From: a virus
IMG/VR virus record: IMGVR_UViG_3300028840_002009
Location: 1 to 29,526 of that record
DNA length: 29,526 nucleotides
Direction: 5' to 3' (one strand)
Shown: positions 14,873 through 24,596 of the stretch, piece after piece
Position numbering within the stretch: the stretch's first letter is position 1
Layout of the letters: each line of letters begins with the position of its first letter
Position numbers and translations under genes: made by a program
The notes under the pieces: generated by a model
Databases searched by the model: none
Told to the model about the DNA's origin: nothing
The model's input: the letters and a program-made list of their open reading frames with translations, nothing else

Positions 14873-15775
14873 ATGGAAAAACTTTTACCGATTTTCCCGT
14901 ATTTTGGCGGGAAACGAAAGATTGCCGATGAAGTATGGGGATATCTCGGTAATCCTAGCTATTATGTGGAACCTTTTTTTGGGGCGGGTGCTGTACTGTT
15001 TGCCAGACCGCACACACCAAAGTTTGAAACAATCAATGATATTGATGGTTACGTGGTGAATTTCTGGCGGTCGGTAAAACATGACCCGGAAACCGTAGCC
15101 GATGAAACCATGCATATCTGTTCAGAAATAGATGTGCTTGCAAGACAACGCTGGATTTGTGAGTATCGGCGCAAGACGGATTTCTTGGAAAATATGAAGC
15201 ATGACCCGGAATACTACGATGCCAAGATTGCCGGGTACTGGCTTTACGGTATCTGCAACTGGTTAGGTTCTGGTTTCTGTGAAAAGTTTTACTATGGTAG
15301 AATCAGCACCGTGGTCAATAATAACTTGGGTACGAAATGCCAAGTGGTATCGGCGCGGCGTCAAGGCGTGTTCAGTTTAGCAAGACGAGATAATATAAAA
15401 GGATTGATGCAACAATTTTATGAACGGTTAAGGCACGTTGTTATCAATTGCGGTGATTGGGAACGTGTCTTATCCAGCGGTAATATTTATATATCTGAAT
15501 CCATAGCGGTATTTCTTGATCCACCGTATGAACATGGCGGTGATTTGTATAGCAACGGAAAACGCGATGAACGCATTAAACAAAAACTGGTGAAATTCTG
15601 TAACAAGTATGCCAGCACTGTAAAAATTGTACTGTGTGGCTATCAGGGTGATTATGATTTAAAAGGTTGGCACGTTAAAAAATGGGAAGCCAGAAAAGGG
15701 TATGCCACAAAAGAAAATACAAAACACCGTGATGAATGCCTTTGGATTTCACCGGCTTGCGAGGTAAACATATGA
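14873..15775 (+). CDS. D12-class N6-adenine DNA methyltransferase
   Basis: The 300-residue enzyme carries FPYFGGKRKIA (residues 8-18), PFFGAGAVLF (34-43) for S-adenosylmethionine binding, and DPPYEHG (216-222), the catalytic motif. It belongs to the MethyltransfD12 family (Dam-like), methylating adenine in a short site that cannot be read from sequence. It sits between small and large terminase, unusual but seen in phages, and could mark DNA before packaging. It overlaps the large terminase by 4 bp (ATGA). No restriction partner is present. Confidence 0.93.
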   Translation: MEKLLPIFPYFGGKRKIADEVWGYLGNPSYYVEPFFGAGAVLFARPHTPKFETINDIDGYVVNFWRSVKHDPETVADETMHICSEIDVLARQRWICEYRRKTDFLENMKHDPEYYDAKIAGYWLYGICNWLGSGFCEKFYYGRISTVVNNNLGTKCQVVSARRQGVFSLARRDNIKGLMQQFYERLRHVVINCGDWERVLSSGNIYISESIAVFLDPPYEHGGDLYSNGKRDERIKQKLVKFCNKYASTVKIVLCGYQGDYDLKGWHVKKWEARKGYATKENTKHRDECLWISPACEVNI

Positions 15776-18567: not shown

Positions 18568-20292
18568 ATGTCCACATCTGTTGATGAAGAAACACAACAA
18601 GTTGAAGTGTTGGGATTCGGGGAATCCGATATCCCAAACAATATTGATGAAGTCATTGATAAATCATTAACCCAAAACCAAACCCAATATGTAATCCAAT
18701 TTCAGAACTTGATTTCCGGTCAAAAAGTCATTGATCCACCTTATAACCCATTGAAATTAACGGCTTTGCTTGAACAGAATACGCGGTTGAATCGTGCTGT
18801 CACGCTTCGGGCGCGGAATACCGTTGGATTGGGGTATTATTTTGTACCGAAACCTGAATTTGCCGATTCAATGACGGAAGAAGAAATCAAAGCTGAATCA
18901 AAAGAATTGCGGGAATTACTTTCTACACCAAACAGGAAAATCCCTTTCATCGAATTGATGACCCGTGAAAAGATTGATGAAGAAGCCACGGGAACGGGCT
19001 ACATCGAAATTGCAAGAAATCGTGTTGGAAAGATTGCAAAGCTGTTTCATTTGCCAGCACATACGGTACGAATCGTAAAGCAAAGCAAAGACGATATTGC
19101 ATATGATGATGAAGGCAATCAATTTGAAATCTATGTTCAATTCAGAAACGGCAAGAAAATCTTTTTCAAAGAATTTGGTGATCCGAGAAAGATTGATTCT
19201 TCCACGGGTAAAAAAGCCAAGGGCAATATCGGATTTGAAAAACAGGCCAATGAAGTAATCAAATTTACCATCTATTCGGCGCGGTCAACATATTACGGTA
19301 TTCCACGTTGGATAGCTGCAATTGCTGCGATTCAGGGCAACCGTATGGCGTCATTACGGAATATGGCATTCTTTGAAAATGATGCGGTAGGGCGTCTTGC
19401 TATCATGGTAACAGGGGGCCGCTTATCACAAGAATCATTGAAACTGATTGAATCCTTTGCCAAGAAACAGACCAAAGGCGCGGAAAAAGCACACCGTGTT
19501 ATGGTCTTGCAAACCGAACCTAAAAAAGTTTTAGGTGGTAGGGGTAACGAAACGAAAATTGAATTGAAACCCCTTACGGTTGGCGCAACCGATGATGCGA
19601 GTTTTCAAAAATATCGGATTCTCAATGACAATGAAGTACAGGAAGCATCGGGGCTTTCAGAACCGTTTTTTACGGCGGCTGGATTAAATAAAGCAACTGC
19701 AACATTATTGCGAAAAATCACGATAGATCAGGAATTGAAACCTGATTTGGAATCCCACGAATACATTTTCAATATGACAGTTGTACCGGAATTCACAAAA
19801 AAATTGCTGCTAAAATTTGTTGCGCCGGATGCGATGGATTCCATTGAAAAAACCAGTTTGGAAGCTGTAAAACAAAAGTCCGGTGTTTCCACACTGAATG
19901 AATCACGCCGTGTACTTGGCGCAAAACCATTTGAACAATCTGAATTTGAATATGGTGATATGCCGTTGCCGTTTGCTTTGATTAAAATGCAAACAGACGC
20001 GGCATTGGGAATGGGGGCATTTGGATCAACAGGGGGTAAACCATCGGAAAACGCGCCGAATCCGTCACGGCAAGCACAGGAAGTTGGTAATGCCGGACAA
20101 GCGCAAGCGCGGTTACAGATGCAGAAAGACGTGCTGTTCAATTCCATACAAGAAGCGACTGAATCCGCTTATGGTATTCGGGATGTATTAAAAGAATTTG
20201 GTAGAGATATTTCAAAAATCGAAATAGAATTATTAAATGGTGAAAAACAAACCATCGAAATTGGAGATAAAAAAGATGCTACTGAACTTTGA
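18568..20292 (+). CDS. Portal protein
   Basis: The 574-residue protein has the HK97/PBSX-type portal layout: LTALLEQNTRLNRAVTLRARNTVGLGYYF near residue 70, a helical stem region, TGTGYIEIARNRVGKIAKLFHLPAHTVRI, the YYGIPRWIAAIAAI core, and a helical C-terminal half (ESGLS/EPFF region, KATATLLRKITIDQELKPDLE). Twelve copies form the ring at one capsid vertex through which DNA enters, and large terminase and neck proteins dock there. Its end overlaps the protease by 17 bp. The C-terminal tail is longer than in small portals, ending in a Gln/Ala-rich helix. Confidence 0.9.
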   Translation: MSTSVDEETQQVEVLGFGESDIPNNIDEVIDKSLTQNQTQYVIQFQNLISGQKVIDPPYNPLKLTALLEQNTRLNRAVTLRARNTVGLGYYFVPKPEFADSMTEEEIKAESKELRELLSTPNRKIPFIELMTREKIDEEATGTGYIEIARNRVGKIAKLFHLPAHTVRIVKQSKDDIAYDDEGNQFEIYVQFRNGKKIFFKEFGDPRKIDSSTGKKAKGNIGFEKQANEVIKFTIYSARSTYYGIPRWIAAIAAIQGNRMASLRNMAFFENDAVGRLAIMVTGGRLSQESLKLIESFAKKQTKGAEKAHRVMVLQTEPKKVLGGRGNETKIELKPLTVGATDDASFQKYRILNDNEVQEASGLSEPFFTAAGLNKATATLLRKITIDQELKPDLESHEYIFNMTVVPEFTKKLLLKFVAPDAMDSIEKTSLEAVKQKSGVSTLNESRRVLGAKPFEQSEFEYGDMPLPFALIKMQTDAALGMGAFGSTGGKPSENAPNPSRQAQEVGNAGQAQARLQMQKDVLFNSIQEATESAYGIRDVLKEFGRDISKIEIELLNGEKQTIEIGDKKDATEL

Positions 20293-23212
20293 CATTAACG
20301 CTGATTCATATCGTGTCTGGAAAGATGCAGATGGAAACCGTTATGTTACAGCTATCATCTCTGATAACAAGCCTGATAAAGCCAATGAACGTGTTTCAGA
20401 AGCTGCACTTGAAGATTTTGTAAGTTATGTAAAGACAAAATCCATTCCTTTATTGCCGTCACACCGTGAATCTTTTGAAATTGGGCTTTCATCAGATGCC
20501 CGTACAATCAAAAAAGGTGATGCTGTTCAATTAGAAATGGATTTCAAGCTGATAGATGGTGATGAACGTGCAGACCGCCTTTATAAAGAAATTGACGATG
20601 GGGAATGCAAACGGCAATTGTCCATTGGCGTGTTCGTTGACCATCGAGAACGCAATTCAGTTTACTTTGAAGTAAACAAACAGGGGCGGCGCATTCGGGT
20701 ACTGAACAAAATGCAACCGGATCATGTTGCCGTGACCCGTGAAAATCATGCATGTAACCCAAGAACAAAATTTACCGATGCAGTCATGAAAGCATTGGAT
20801 GAAGCGGGTATTATTGCCAGCGATTTACCAAGCGAATTACCGGAAAATGAACAGAATCCTATCATCATAAAGGATGCTGAACAGGCATTGTTTTTTGGGC
20901 GTGAATTAAAATATACTGGCGAAGGCCAACGTCTTAAACAAAGCCAAGGTGAATGGGTAAAGGTATACATCGACGCATTGCACAAGGGCATGATTCCAAA
21001 GGAAGCTGAAAAACATGCGTTTCGTGTGATTGAAAAACTTTCCAGAACAATTGATACAAACCCCTTGACAATTCGTGTTGAAAAAAGGGATACTGAGGGT
21101 GTGGAAATCGGTATATTGGATGGGGGTGGTCATTCCCACCAATATATTGTGGAATATGGCAATGAAAAATCTTTAAGAAGTTTCGTCTTGACGACAAAGA
21201 ATCATTGTCATAAGATCAATATAGGTTCAGGGAGAACCGATGTTGTCAATAACCATTCGCATACCATCAAGATACAGGAAAATAAAATGACTGAAAAAGG
21301 TTTCATGCCAAAAGAAGATGAAGCACTTATTGAAATCAGATTTCCAGCCGATGAATTTTCCAGTGAAGAATCAGTAAAAGAATGGCTTACTAATCAAGGC
21401 ATGATTCGACCACAACGTATCAGAACTGAACGTAGTGGTTTCAGACCCGATGACACGGTTGCATATTCGTATACCGCCGAATTCGATACCAAAGACAAAG
21501 ATTATACAAACACACGTGTTGATATGATAGGCTTTAACATATATGCCTTGATTGGATACAATTCATCTTCCCAAAGCCGTGAACTCGGTGTGTTAATGGG
21601 GGATAATAAAGCGGAAATCGAAAAAGCCGCTGTGCCTTACCGCGATTATCCCATGTCAGACGAAACAGGCTGGTCATTTACCGCCGCTGATGGTAATGAA
21701 TTACTCGGTGAAAACGGCGATAATTGGGGGCGTTACAAAGAAGCACACGCTTATTTTGACCGTGAACAGGGTACAGTACCCACGGTTAAACAGGCATACG
21801 GCTTGCCACACCACAAAAACGTGCCTTTGCGCACATATCGCCGGGGTGTAACAGCAGCTATTGCGGCGTTAAACGGTGCGCGGGGTGGTTTCCAACGTGC
21901 GCAAGGTGAAGAAAGAACACGTATATATAACCATCTTGCCCGGCATTTGCGCGAAAATGACATTGAACCGCCTGAATTACAAGAAAAATGGATGGATTCT
22001 TCCCTTTCGGACGAAGAATTATCAAAAATTTTAGAAAATTCCCGCCAAGAAATGATTGCAGTATTGACGGAGAAGGGATACGATACAGAGTGGTTAAGCA
22101 AGGATTGGTGGTTTACTTGGGATGAATCGGTTGCCGGTAATCCCGAAAACATACGGAAAGGTGTTTGGATAATGGGAAATGAAAACGAGAACACAGCCGT
22201 AGAAAAGCAAGCCGAAAAAGAACCGGAAACCAAAGAACCGGAACAAAAGGCTGAAAAAGAAGAGGAAAAGGCTACTGAGGAAAAATCTTCTGAGGAAAAG
22301 GGAGAATCCCAAGAATCTACAGAACAAAAGGAACAGGACGAAAAAGCACGGGGTGAAGGCCAAGGTGTTGGTGGCCCACGTCAAGGCGATGGTGGAACAG
22401 ATACTTGTGTATGCAAGTCTTGTGGTCACGAAATGCCGCATGAACGTGGAACGCCTTGTTCAGAAATCAAATGCCCGGAATGTGGCGGTGAAATGATGGG
22501 TAAAGAAGACCCCGAAAAGCCCGATGAAAAATCCGATGAAAAGCCCGATGAAAAATCGGATGAAAAAACAGAAGAAAAATCGGATGATTCGAAAGAATCG
22601 GAAAAGGATGATGCTGAAAAGGACGATTCCAAAAAGGACGATTCCAAAAAGGATGATCCTGTTGATACAATCGACAAGTCAATTTTCAACGGTGAATTAA
22701 CCGATGACCAGCGCAATTCAATCCGAGAAATCTTTTCTGCACATTACGTTCTTTCTGATAAGGTTGTCAATCCTGAAAACGCGGAAGAAAACGCTGAATC
22801 CGCTGAAAAGGAAACGGCAACCGACGAATCTGATGCTGAAAACAAAGAGGAAAACGAAGAACCGACAATGGCAGACGTTATCAAGCGTTTGGATGCTCTC
22901 GAAAAGGGCATTTCAGAATTGCGCGAAAACGTCAACAAAGAATTGGAAGCGGTTCAGACGGTTGCAATCGACAAATCAACCGATGCATCGAATCAGGTAC
23001 AAGAACGTGTTGAAAAAGCATTCGGTGCGGCTTTCGATAAGGCCGAAGAAATTCTTGCTGAAAAGATGAACGGCCTGAATGAACGGATTGAAACCCTTGA
23101 AAAGAGTGGCGCAGCATCCAAACAGCCGGATGGTCAAGAAGACCCGGATGCACCCCCTGCAAAAGCGGGTAGCTTCAAGGGTATATTCTCAAACGCATTG
23201 AAAAACCGTTGA
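20276..23212 (+). CDS. Prohead protease/scaffold fusion, 978 aa
   Basis: Residues 1-165 are a HK97-like prohead protease with candidate catalytic His63 (LLPSHR) and Ser116 (QLSIG). Residues 280-330 have three His-x-His motifs (286/288, 310/312, 327/329). Residues 520-570 hold the recurrent domain RRGVTAAIAALNGARGG...HLARHLREN. From 633 a disordered acid/Lys-rich linker follows, interrupted by a zinc ribbon (CVCKSCG, CPECGG, 711-736) and SDEK-type repeats. The last 110 residues are a coiled-coil scaffold-like end. The protease processes head proteins and the tail helps assembly. It is much larger than usual (about 200-400 residues), and an internal ATG at 22172 may make scaffold alone. Confidence 0.85.
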   Translation: MLLNFDINADSYRVWKDADGNRYVTAIISDNKPDKANERVSEAALEDFVSYVKTKSIPLLPSHRESFEIGLSSDARTIKKGDAVQLEMDFKLIDGDERADRLYKEIDDGECKRQLSIGVFVDHRERNSVYFEVNKQGRRIRVLNKMQPDHVAVTRENHACNPRTKFTDAVMKALDEAGIIASDLPSELPENEQNPIIIKDAEQALFFGRELKYTGEGQRLKQSQGEWVKVYIDALHKGMIPKEAEKHAFRVIEKLSRTIDTNPLTIRVEKRDTEGVEIGILDGGGHSHQYIVEYGNEKSLRSFVLTTKNHCHKINIGSGRTDVVNNHSHTIKIQENKMTEKGFMPKEDEALIEIRFPADEFSSEESVKEWLTNQGMIRPQRIRTERSGFRPDDTVAYSYTAEFDTKDKDYTNTRVDMIGFNIYALIGYNSSSQSRELGVLMGDNKAEIEKAAVPYRDYPMSDETGWSFTAADGNELLGENGDNWGRYKEAHAYFDREQGTVPTVKQAYGLPHHKNVPLRTYRRGVTAAIAALNGARGGFQRAQGEERTRIYNHLARHLRENDIEPPELQEKWMDSSLSDEELSKILENSRQEMIAVLTEKGYDTEWLSKDWWFTWDESVAGNPENIRKGVWIMGNENENTAVEKQAEKEPETKEPEQKAEKEEEKATEEKSSEEKGESQESTEQKEQDEKARGEGQGVGGPRQGDGGTDTCVCKSCGHEMPHERGTPCSEIKCPECGGEMMGKEDPEKPDEKSDEKPDEKSDEKTEEKSDDSKESEKDDAEKDDSKKDDSKKDDPVDTIDKSIFNGELTDDQRNSIREIFSAHYVLSDKVVNPENAEENAESAEKETATDESDAENKEENEEPTMADVIKRLDALEKGISELRENVNKELEAVQTVAIDKSTDASNQVQERVEKAFGAAFDKAEEILAEKMNGLNERIETLEKSGAASKQPDGQEDPDAPPAKAGSFKGIFSNALKNR
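22154..22174 (+). promoter_or_regulatory. Possible internal start for a nested scaffold protein
   Basis: GGAAAGG (22155-22161) precedes an in-frame ATG (22172-22174), residue 633 of the fusion, at 10-nt spacing. Initiation here would make a 346-residue product without the protease, like the nested scaffold of lambda (C and Nu3). Confidence 0.5.
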
Positions 23213-23291
23213 TGATTCCCGGTTGTGTAGGGTTTCATGCGGTCACGACATAAAGGGAAAAAACGGGGATTTGGAATTAAGGAGTATGACA

Positions 23292-24596
23292 ATGCCAAGC
23301 AATCGGGAACTCGTCGAAAAGACGTTTGACACAGCATCGTTTCTGAACGGTGGTGAACTTAACCCGACGCAACAGGATCGTTTCATTACATTGGTGAAAC
23401 AATTCAGCGTCTTGTTGGGGCAGGTTCGGTTCATCCCCATGCCCACACCACAATACACGGTGGACAAGATGCACATTTCAGAACCGGTTACGGAAGCTAT
23501 TGAAGAAAATACGACTTCCGCAAACCTTGCAGAAGGCCGGTTCAATCAGGTGACATTGCAAGCCGTGAAACTGCGTTCGGCATGGAACATCACAACGGAA
23601 GCCCTGCAATCCAACATCGAGCGTGATGATTTCGAGGACACACTGTTCCAGCGTATGACGGAGCGTATCGCTACCGACCTTGAATTGCTTGCAATTCAGG
23701 GTGACACCACAATTGTTGGAACAGACCCAAGGGCGCGTTTGTTACGGCGTTTGGATGGATGGGATATTCAATCAGCGGGTGCGCACATCATCGACGCCGC
23801 CGCCGAAACCATCGAAAAGAACATGTTTGCGCAAGCCTTGCGTACCATGCCCAAGCAGTATCGGAATGACCCCGGCCTTCGCTGGTTAATGTCCGATACT
23901 CTCGCAACCGACTGGATGAACCTACTTGCAGAACGTGGAACAGCCGTTGGTGATTCCGCGCTGCAAGGCGTTGGTTTGAATCCATTCGGTAAGCCGATGA
24001 TTCAGGTGCCGTTGATCCCGGATGATAAGCCCCTTGTCCTTGCAGACGCAACCCCCGCCTATACCGTTGGTGTGCGGAGTGGCCCGTTTGAAGTCGTGAC
24101 CGGATCGAATGACCAGTTTACAATCACAGATGCATTGGCAACAGCGGTTGCCGTAACGGTTCCAGCAGGAACATGGGATACCGTGACCGTAGCCGCAAGC
24201 ATCAATGCACAGATGATTGCCGGTGGTATCACACTGATCGTGTGTTCGGATGACGGAGACGGCCAACTCAAATTCGAGACAACCGATACCGGCGTTGCCG
24301 CAACTTTCACGCTGGCGGCTGGCGCGAATGACTTCTTGGTAACGGCTGGCGTCACACCGGCTGTCTACACCGGCGCGGCTGCGGGTACGGGTGGAACGGT
24401 TGATGAAGGATCGTTCATCATCCTTACCAATCCGTTGAACATGATATTCGGAATGCTTGACGGCACCCGTGTATTCAGCGAATTCAACAAGGACTATGAC
24501 CGGATTGAAACAGTTGTGTTCAATCAGGTTGATGCGAAGATTGAAAACATTGATGCGCTTGTGAAAGTGATCAATGTAAGACGGCAACAGTTGTAA
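23292..24596 (+). CDS. Major capsid protein (HK97 fold)
   Basis: The 434-residue protein matches phage major capsid proteins of the HK97 fold: N-terminal arm, AEGRFNQVTLQAVKLRSAWNITTEALQSNIERDDFEDTLF spanning the E-loop and spine helix start, ERIATDLELLAIQGD, then P- and A-domain strands. About residues 255-372 are an extra Thr/Val/Ala-rich beta-domain, so the domain is an insertion in the A or P domain. Start is ATG 23292, with AAGGAG at 23279-23284 and 7-nt spacing, not ATG 23286. Many copies make the shell. It is followed by a terminator. Confidence 0.9.
   Translation: MPSNRELVEKTFDTASFLNGGELNPTQQDRFITLVKQFSVLLGQVRFIPMPTPQYTVDKMHISEPVTEAIEENTTSANLAEGRFNQVTLQAVKLRSAWNITTEALQSNIERDDFEDTLFQRMTERIATDLELLAIQGDTTIVGTDPRARLLRRLDGWDIQSAGAHIIDAAAETIEKNMFAQALRTMPKQYRNDPGLRWLMSDTLATDWMNLLAERGTAVGDSALQGVGLNPFGKPMIQVPLIPDDKPLVLADATPAYTVGVRSGPFEVVTGSNDQFTITDALATAVAVTVPAGTWDTVTVAASINAQMIAGGITLIVCSDDGDGQLKFETTDTGVAATFTLAAGANDFLVTAGVTPAVYTGAAAGTGGTVDEGSFIILTNPLNMIFGMLDGTRVFSEFNKDYDRIETVVFNQVDAKIENIDALVKVINVRRQQL

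Follow-up and report, generated by a model that had tools for sequence, protein, structure and literature searches.

The protease-scaffold fusion gene and its neighbours

Between the portal and major capsid genes of the virus analysed here lies a gene of 978 codons, and the question is whether it is translated into a single fusion protein or also, from a start inside the same frame, into a separate scaffold protein. The window, that is, the whole stretch of DNA that was analysed, is a virus record of 29.5 kb. ORF analysis of the window showed that the gene is an open single frame on the plus strand, flanked on its 5' side by the portal gene (Phage_portal Pfam match, 6.7e-17) and on its 3' side by the capsid gene (Phage_capsid PF05065, 6e-9; phrog_1623, 7.6e-69). 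The two head genes concerned are as follows.

20276..23212, plus strand: prohead protease-scaffold fusion gene (ORF); 17-nt overlap with the portal stop; start with GGAGA, Shine-Dalgarno (SD) energy -6.4
23286..24596, plus strand: gene of the major capsid protein (HK97 fold family); AAGGAG precedes the ATG, which is 23286 or 23292

An earlier note on this DNA placed the start at 20276, and we also prefer this start, as its SD energy is -6.4 kcal/mol, compared with +0.1 kcal/mol at the upstream in-frame ATG 20237. The full-length fusion has a mass of 110 kDa. The protease and the scaffold-like region share one frame directly before the capsid gene, which is the arrangement of nested protease/scaffold genes. 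Pattern searches of viral contigs found no close relative of the whole protein, nor was one found in the genome contigs, and a Pfam search gave no family for the whole 978-residue protein; the matches to HSBP1 and similar families were rejected as coiled-coil noise. Elsewhere in the window, a D12-class adenine methyltransferase gene (14873-15775; 5e-16) is located directly 5' of the terminase gene.

Domains of the fusion protein

The same note described the product as a 978-residue protein that joins a protease, middle domains and a coiled-coil, scaffold-like end. This description holds, since the frame is open throughout and the domains were either matched or modelled.

20309..20770, plus strand: protease domain, T4 gp21/herpesvirus-protease fold (phrog_80; AlphaFold2 model; structure matches; invariant residues)
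21128..21262, plus strand: His-rich stretch with three HxH motifs, between the protease and the middle domain; missing from L012-L015 (alignment A3)
21623..22171, plus strand: helical middle domain (LNGARGGF ... WW..WD ... GVW; alignment and model)
22172..22399, plus strand: acidic disordered linker (32% Asp+Glu; pLDDT < 50)
22400..22501, plus strand: zinc-ribbon-like insert (CxCxxC ... CPECG) in the linker (model pLDDT 81-87)
22868..23107, plus strand: C-terminal coiled-coil helices, scaffold-like (model helices 878-912 and 918-957)
23168..23209, plus strand: conserved C-terminal motif, GxFxGxF-like (alignment A3)

The first ~160 residues match the head maturation protease family phrog_80 (1.7e-5), and an AlphaFold2 model of the protease, built from a 25-sequence alignment, has a pLDDT of 83. 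This model matches T4 gp21 (5jbl) with a Z score of 12.5 over 137 residues, far above unrelated entries, and herpesvirus proteases with Z scores of 6-8. No ClpP-like structure was among the matches listed for the model, an absence that is no evidence against a likeness to ClpP. H63, S116, D149 and H150 (counted from 20276) are invariant in 25 divergent sequences and are candidates for the catalytic His, Ser and third residue. By its modelled fold the domain is a prohead protease of the T4 gp21/herpesvirus type, for which proteolysis of scaffold and capsid is predicted.

The middle domain is also present in Thermus phage Riverbug and in MFTV1, and it stands alone in Moorella phage MTATph1; a search with the domain gave a single weak phage match. 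In the MTATph1 contig (L002, 5998-6375) the free-standing LNGARGG domain of 125 aa lies among replication and recombination genes; thus, the role of this domain is not confined to head genes.

Residues 633-708, in the linker, contain 32% Asp+Glu and no Trp. The zinc-ribbon-like module was observed in the scaffold linker of the window phage only; neither L072 (the nearest relative of this phage, see below) nor any other aligned relative has it. In its C-terminal part the protein resembles the corresponding ends of the head maturation protease families phrog_3017 (6e-4) and phrog_9427 (3e-3), and by analogy the GxFxGxF-like motif is a candidate capsid-binding tail. As a separate observation, a small protein encoded between the terminase and portal genes of two relatives (L004, 503-838; L005, 1575-1889) starts with FKGIF or FKSVF, like the tail of the window scaffold, FKGIFSNAL.

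The proposed internal start in the window

The earlier note proposed that a scaffold is nested in the gene and starts at ATG 22172, where the folded part ends and the acidic linker begins.

22155..22163, plus strand: GGAAAGGTG, Shine-Dalgarno-like sequence belonging to the proposed scaffold start; exact match to the anti-SD over 5 nt, with a register spacing of 10
22172..23212, plus strand: proposed nested scaffold gene; 346 aa, 38.2 kDa, pI 4.4; starts at the same junction in L072, L073, L076 and L077

The reading of the sequence is correct: ATG 22172 is codon 633, preceded by GGAAAGG at 22155-22161 and then 10 nt. The longest exact anti-SD match before this ATG is AGGTG at 22159-22163. Its position at the boundary of the folded and disordered parts agrees with the full-length AlphaFold2 model (8-sequence alignment; mean pLDDT 49, that is, low confidence), in which the last helix of the middle domain stops two residues before the Met and the pLDDT stays below 50 for ~75 residues from Met 633 onward.

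The SD energy at 22172 is -7.9, and 4.8% of the 797 ATGs on the plus strand of the window have a site at least as good. Within the ORF, three of the 19 internal ATGs attain this level (22172, 22493 and 22496), synonymous recoding attains it in 37% of draws, and about one ATG as good as 22172 is expected by chance in this ORF. Taken alone within the window, the ribosome site of 22172 is no better than chance, and thus the case depends on relatives. The ATGs at 22493 and 22496 are in frame and have an SD energy of -9.1, but they lie within the zinc ribbon and their match is only GGTGA at 4-7 nt. Gene starts in the window often have modest SD sequences (median -6.2 for the best early ATG of each ORF), so that the moderate one at 22172 is compatible with use. 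The RNA at 22172 is about as structured as the ORF on average.

Internal start signals in the relatives

We found about 25 distinct relatives, which form three groups. The window group consists of L004, L005, L007/L008, L010/L011, L012, L013, L014/L015 and the partial L072. The short group, without the middle domain, comprises L025-L039 and L045-L060, from which 14 distinct members were examined. The giant group, with the middle domain and ~1110-1135 residues, consists of L073/L074, L075/L076 and the partial L077. All complete members read through as a single frame, which indicates that the fusion is real and old. Two portal genes among these relatives contain intein-like sequences: that of L004 (2108-5206) carries an intein that includes an HNH endonuclease (Intein_splicing, 7.6e-19; HNH_3, 2.9e-7), and the portal ORF of L074 (2-1492; the same ORF in L073, and a similar one, 3-1544, in L076) has intein-like and LAGLIDADG-like sequence. 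The intein and LAGLIDADG Pfam matches of L074 are weak, and this is apparently a different intein from that in L004.

In nearly all relatives, a junction between a folded part and the scaffold carries an in-frame ATG preceded by a good ribosome site. Among the in-frame ATGs of the linker-start stretch, 8 of 10 have an SD sequence of at least 5 nt at suitable spacing, compared with 27/190 elsewhere in the same genes (Fisher p 1.5e-5, which is a guide only, since related sequences are counted repeatedly and the stretch was defined post hoc). In the comparison set, the other long ORFs of the same contigs, an SD sequence of at least 5 nt precedes 58/591 ATGs. A distant relative, L080, has AAGGAG-N5-ATG after the folded part.

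The short group provides the clearest series. Ten aligned members have a Met in one column right after the protease, within a poorly conserved stretch, and in nearly all of them the arrangement is GGAGG-N7-ATG (GGAGG-N10 in L028). In L036, the GGAGG precedes 7652. In L055 there is no signal at the shared column, and AAGGAG lies 5 or 6 nt before an ATG (3763) about two dozen codons downstream; weaker versions occur in L058 and L059. Shuffling synonymous codons and scoring the SD energy alone is uninformative in Lys/Glu-rich contexts, and therefore codon identity was tested instead. The SD sequence of the short group is encoded by Gly-Gly, and these pairs read GGAGG in 9/9 cases at the site, compared with 3/56 elsewhere in those genes. 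Windows just 5' of the Met rank 1-5 of 536 in silent-codon conservation (10 sequences), and 1-4 of 508 when six divergent members were analysed; among 20 invariant Gly columns, the SD column is the only one at which all six use a single codon (GGA). We regard this conservation as strong sequence-based evidence for an internal start, which would lie right after the protease.

In the giant group, L073, L076 and L077 open the acidic linker with AGGAGG-N8-ATG (AGGAGGT in register, -13.2 to -13.7 kcal/mol), and 22172 occupies the corresponding junction in the window. In L073, the AGGAGG precedes 4538. In the silent-site test, which here covered only three sequences, the windows at the site rank 23-84 of 1025. 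L073 (3656, -13.0) and L077 (3668, -11.6) each have another strong internal ribosome site with an ATG, upstream of the middle domain, which possibly gives a third product.

In the window group, each member has at least one internal start signal, and its position is not constant. The nearest relative of the window by the C-terminal part, L072 (38% identity), has AGGAG-N8-ATG 18 residues past the invariant Asp of the WD motif; the distance in the window is 17, i.e. one residue off. In a MAFFT alignment of the two the site falls in a gap, so the correspondence rests on the distance from this motif. Within the first 45 residues of the linker, L012 and L013 have AAGGAGG-N8-ATG and L008 has GGAGG-N11-ATG; no linker-start ATG was found in L004, L005 and L011. 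In the alignments, L004, L005, L008, L011, L012, L013 and L014 lack a Met at the position of ATG 22172.

Two proposed products from one gene

The best explanation, which we hold with moderate confidence, is that the gene is translated in two ways; in the window phage, ATG 22172 is the most likely internal start and would yield an acidic coiled-coil scaffold of 38 kDa. Translation from 20276 would yield the 110-kDa protease-scaffold fusion, presumably in few copies per procapsid, and ribosomes starting internally in the same frame, putatively at 22172, would yield a protease-free product in excess. This product would be the scaffold that assembles with the capsid protein and may later be digested by the fused protease. 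A candidate internal start with a ribosome site at the scaffold boundary is present in the window, moderate and with long spacing (10), and such sites are strong and conserved in relatives; the nested start is supported because L072, L073, L076, L077 and the short group carry conserved signals. Judged from such signals, a nested scaffold appears well supported for the family and likely in the window phage, and 22172 is the best single candidate for the start in the window. Thus, the proposal of a nested scaffold gained comparative support, while its exact start is weakened by the seven relatives without the Met and by competition from another ATG.

21596..21598, plus strand: ATG of the rival internal start; present in all 8 proteins of alignment A3, missing in L072; GGTG, -5.5 in the window

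This main rival lies before the middle domain and would give a product of 538 aa and 60 kDa, containing the LNGARGGF domain and the scaffold. Its Met is invariant in all 8 proteins of A3 amid a variable linker, and apart from M1 no other Met is invariant. The equivalent Met has AAGGAGG 5-8 nt upstream in L004, L005 and L011 and AAGGAG 5 nt upstream in L014, and in these four the equivalent ATG is the best internal ATG by SD. However, the SD at 21596 is weak in the window (-5.5) as well as in L008 (-5.3), local RNA is more structured there than at 22172, and the Met is absent from L072, the nearest relative. We therefore think it unlikely that 21596 is the nested start of the window phage. The stronger version, that 22172 is spurious and 21596 the true start, was first suggested by the seven relatives without the Met, and was reversed by L072 and L073-L077.

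Another explanation is that there is no internal start here and that a single fusion protein is made, from which the protease frees the scaffold by self-cleavage, as in P2 gpO. This would agree with the finding that the site at 22172 alone is not above chance and with L005 and L011, in which the start of the linker lacks a good ATG. However, in these two an ATG upstream of the middle domain is preceded by AAGGAGG, and internal start signals are kept in three groups of relatives, with silent-codon selection in one of them; self-cleavage alone seems to us a doubtful account. A last possibility is that in every member a Lys/Glu-rich linker (AAG/GAG codons) yields the internal Met and its purine-rich run as functionless by-products. 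This is very improbable, for although recoding with synonymous codons frequently restores a comparable SD at Lys/Glu sites, the short-group SD comes from Gly-Gly, its GGAGG is otherwise rare yet fixed and silent-site conserved here only, and the spacing from SD to ATG is kept at 7-8 nt in most members.

Two-way translation of the gene may extend to the family as a whole. We suggest, tentatively, that a widespread phage family with herpesvirus-type proteases makes nested scaffolds, and that the inner start shifted along the gene with the gain of domains, to lie after the protease or on either side of the middle domain; L073, L077, L012 and L013 may use two inner starts to make graded forms of the scaffold. 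The ratio of scaffold to protease is a basic problem of head assembly, and a family in which one gene has an internal start that shifts in position between relatives, under a constant principle, would be a natural series for testing how this ratio is set. The family is uncharacterised, and the trick of lambda and Mu would recur across all of it with the inner start in differing places. In such genomes, gene callers would overlook a structural protein.

Comparison with known systems

The protease C of phage lambda is ClpP-like, and the protease of MD8, related to that of lambda, is described as modelled on ClpP. The lambda scaffold Nu3 is made from within the protease gene C and shares its C-terminus (Shaw and Murialdo 1980, cited in PMC8508860). 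The comparison with C/Nu3 drawn in the earlier note is fair as an analogy of layout, as in both cases protease and scaffold occupy one gene before the capsid gene. The window gene differs in its protease of the T4 gp21/herpesvirus type (the class of the lambda protease being taken from background knowledge) and in having additional middle domains as well as a zinc ribbon. For Mu and the Mu-like phage PaMx73, too, protease-scaffold genes with inner starts are described (PMC4378225). The inner start of PaMx73, unlike that considered here, is proposed at a Val codon. We know of no middle domains in the protease-scaffold gene of Mu or PaMx73. P2 gpO has protease and scaffold in one gene (PMC8508860). 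The window gene shares this combination. To our knowledge, no nested start has been described for P2 gpO.

Three shorter proteins have the same middle domain: the head maturation protease of Thermus phage Riverbug (438 aa), MFTV1 gp11 (365 aa) and Moorella phage MTATph1 CDS0105 (125 aa). No strong internal SD before an ATG was found in MFTV1.

In herpesviruses, the scaffold is also made alone from inside the protease-scaffold gene (UL26/UL26.5), by means of a separate nested transcript. The window gene has the same protease fold class, likewise fused to a scaffold, whereas the proposed second product would depend on an internal ribosome site rather than on a second transcript. PMC8539031 cites work on both UL26 and UL26.5. 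If the family-wide reading is true, nested scaffolds of this kind would be the translational equivalent, in phages, of UL26/UL26.5, and the herpesvirus layout (protease-scaffold plus scaffold alone) would extend to phages whose protease has the same fold as that of herpesviruses. The principle of the nested start is already known from lambda C/Nu3 and Mu. The inserted domains set the window gene apart from the known kinds, as does, compared with lambda, probably the class of the protease; what is new is the shifting inner start.
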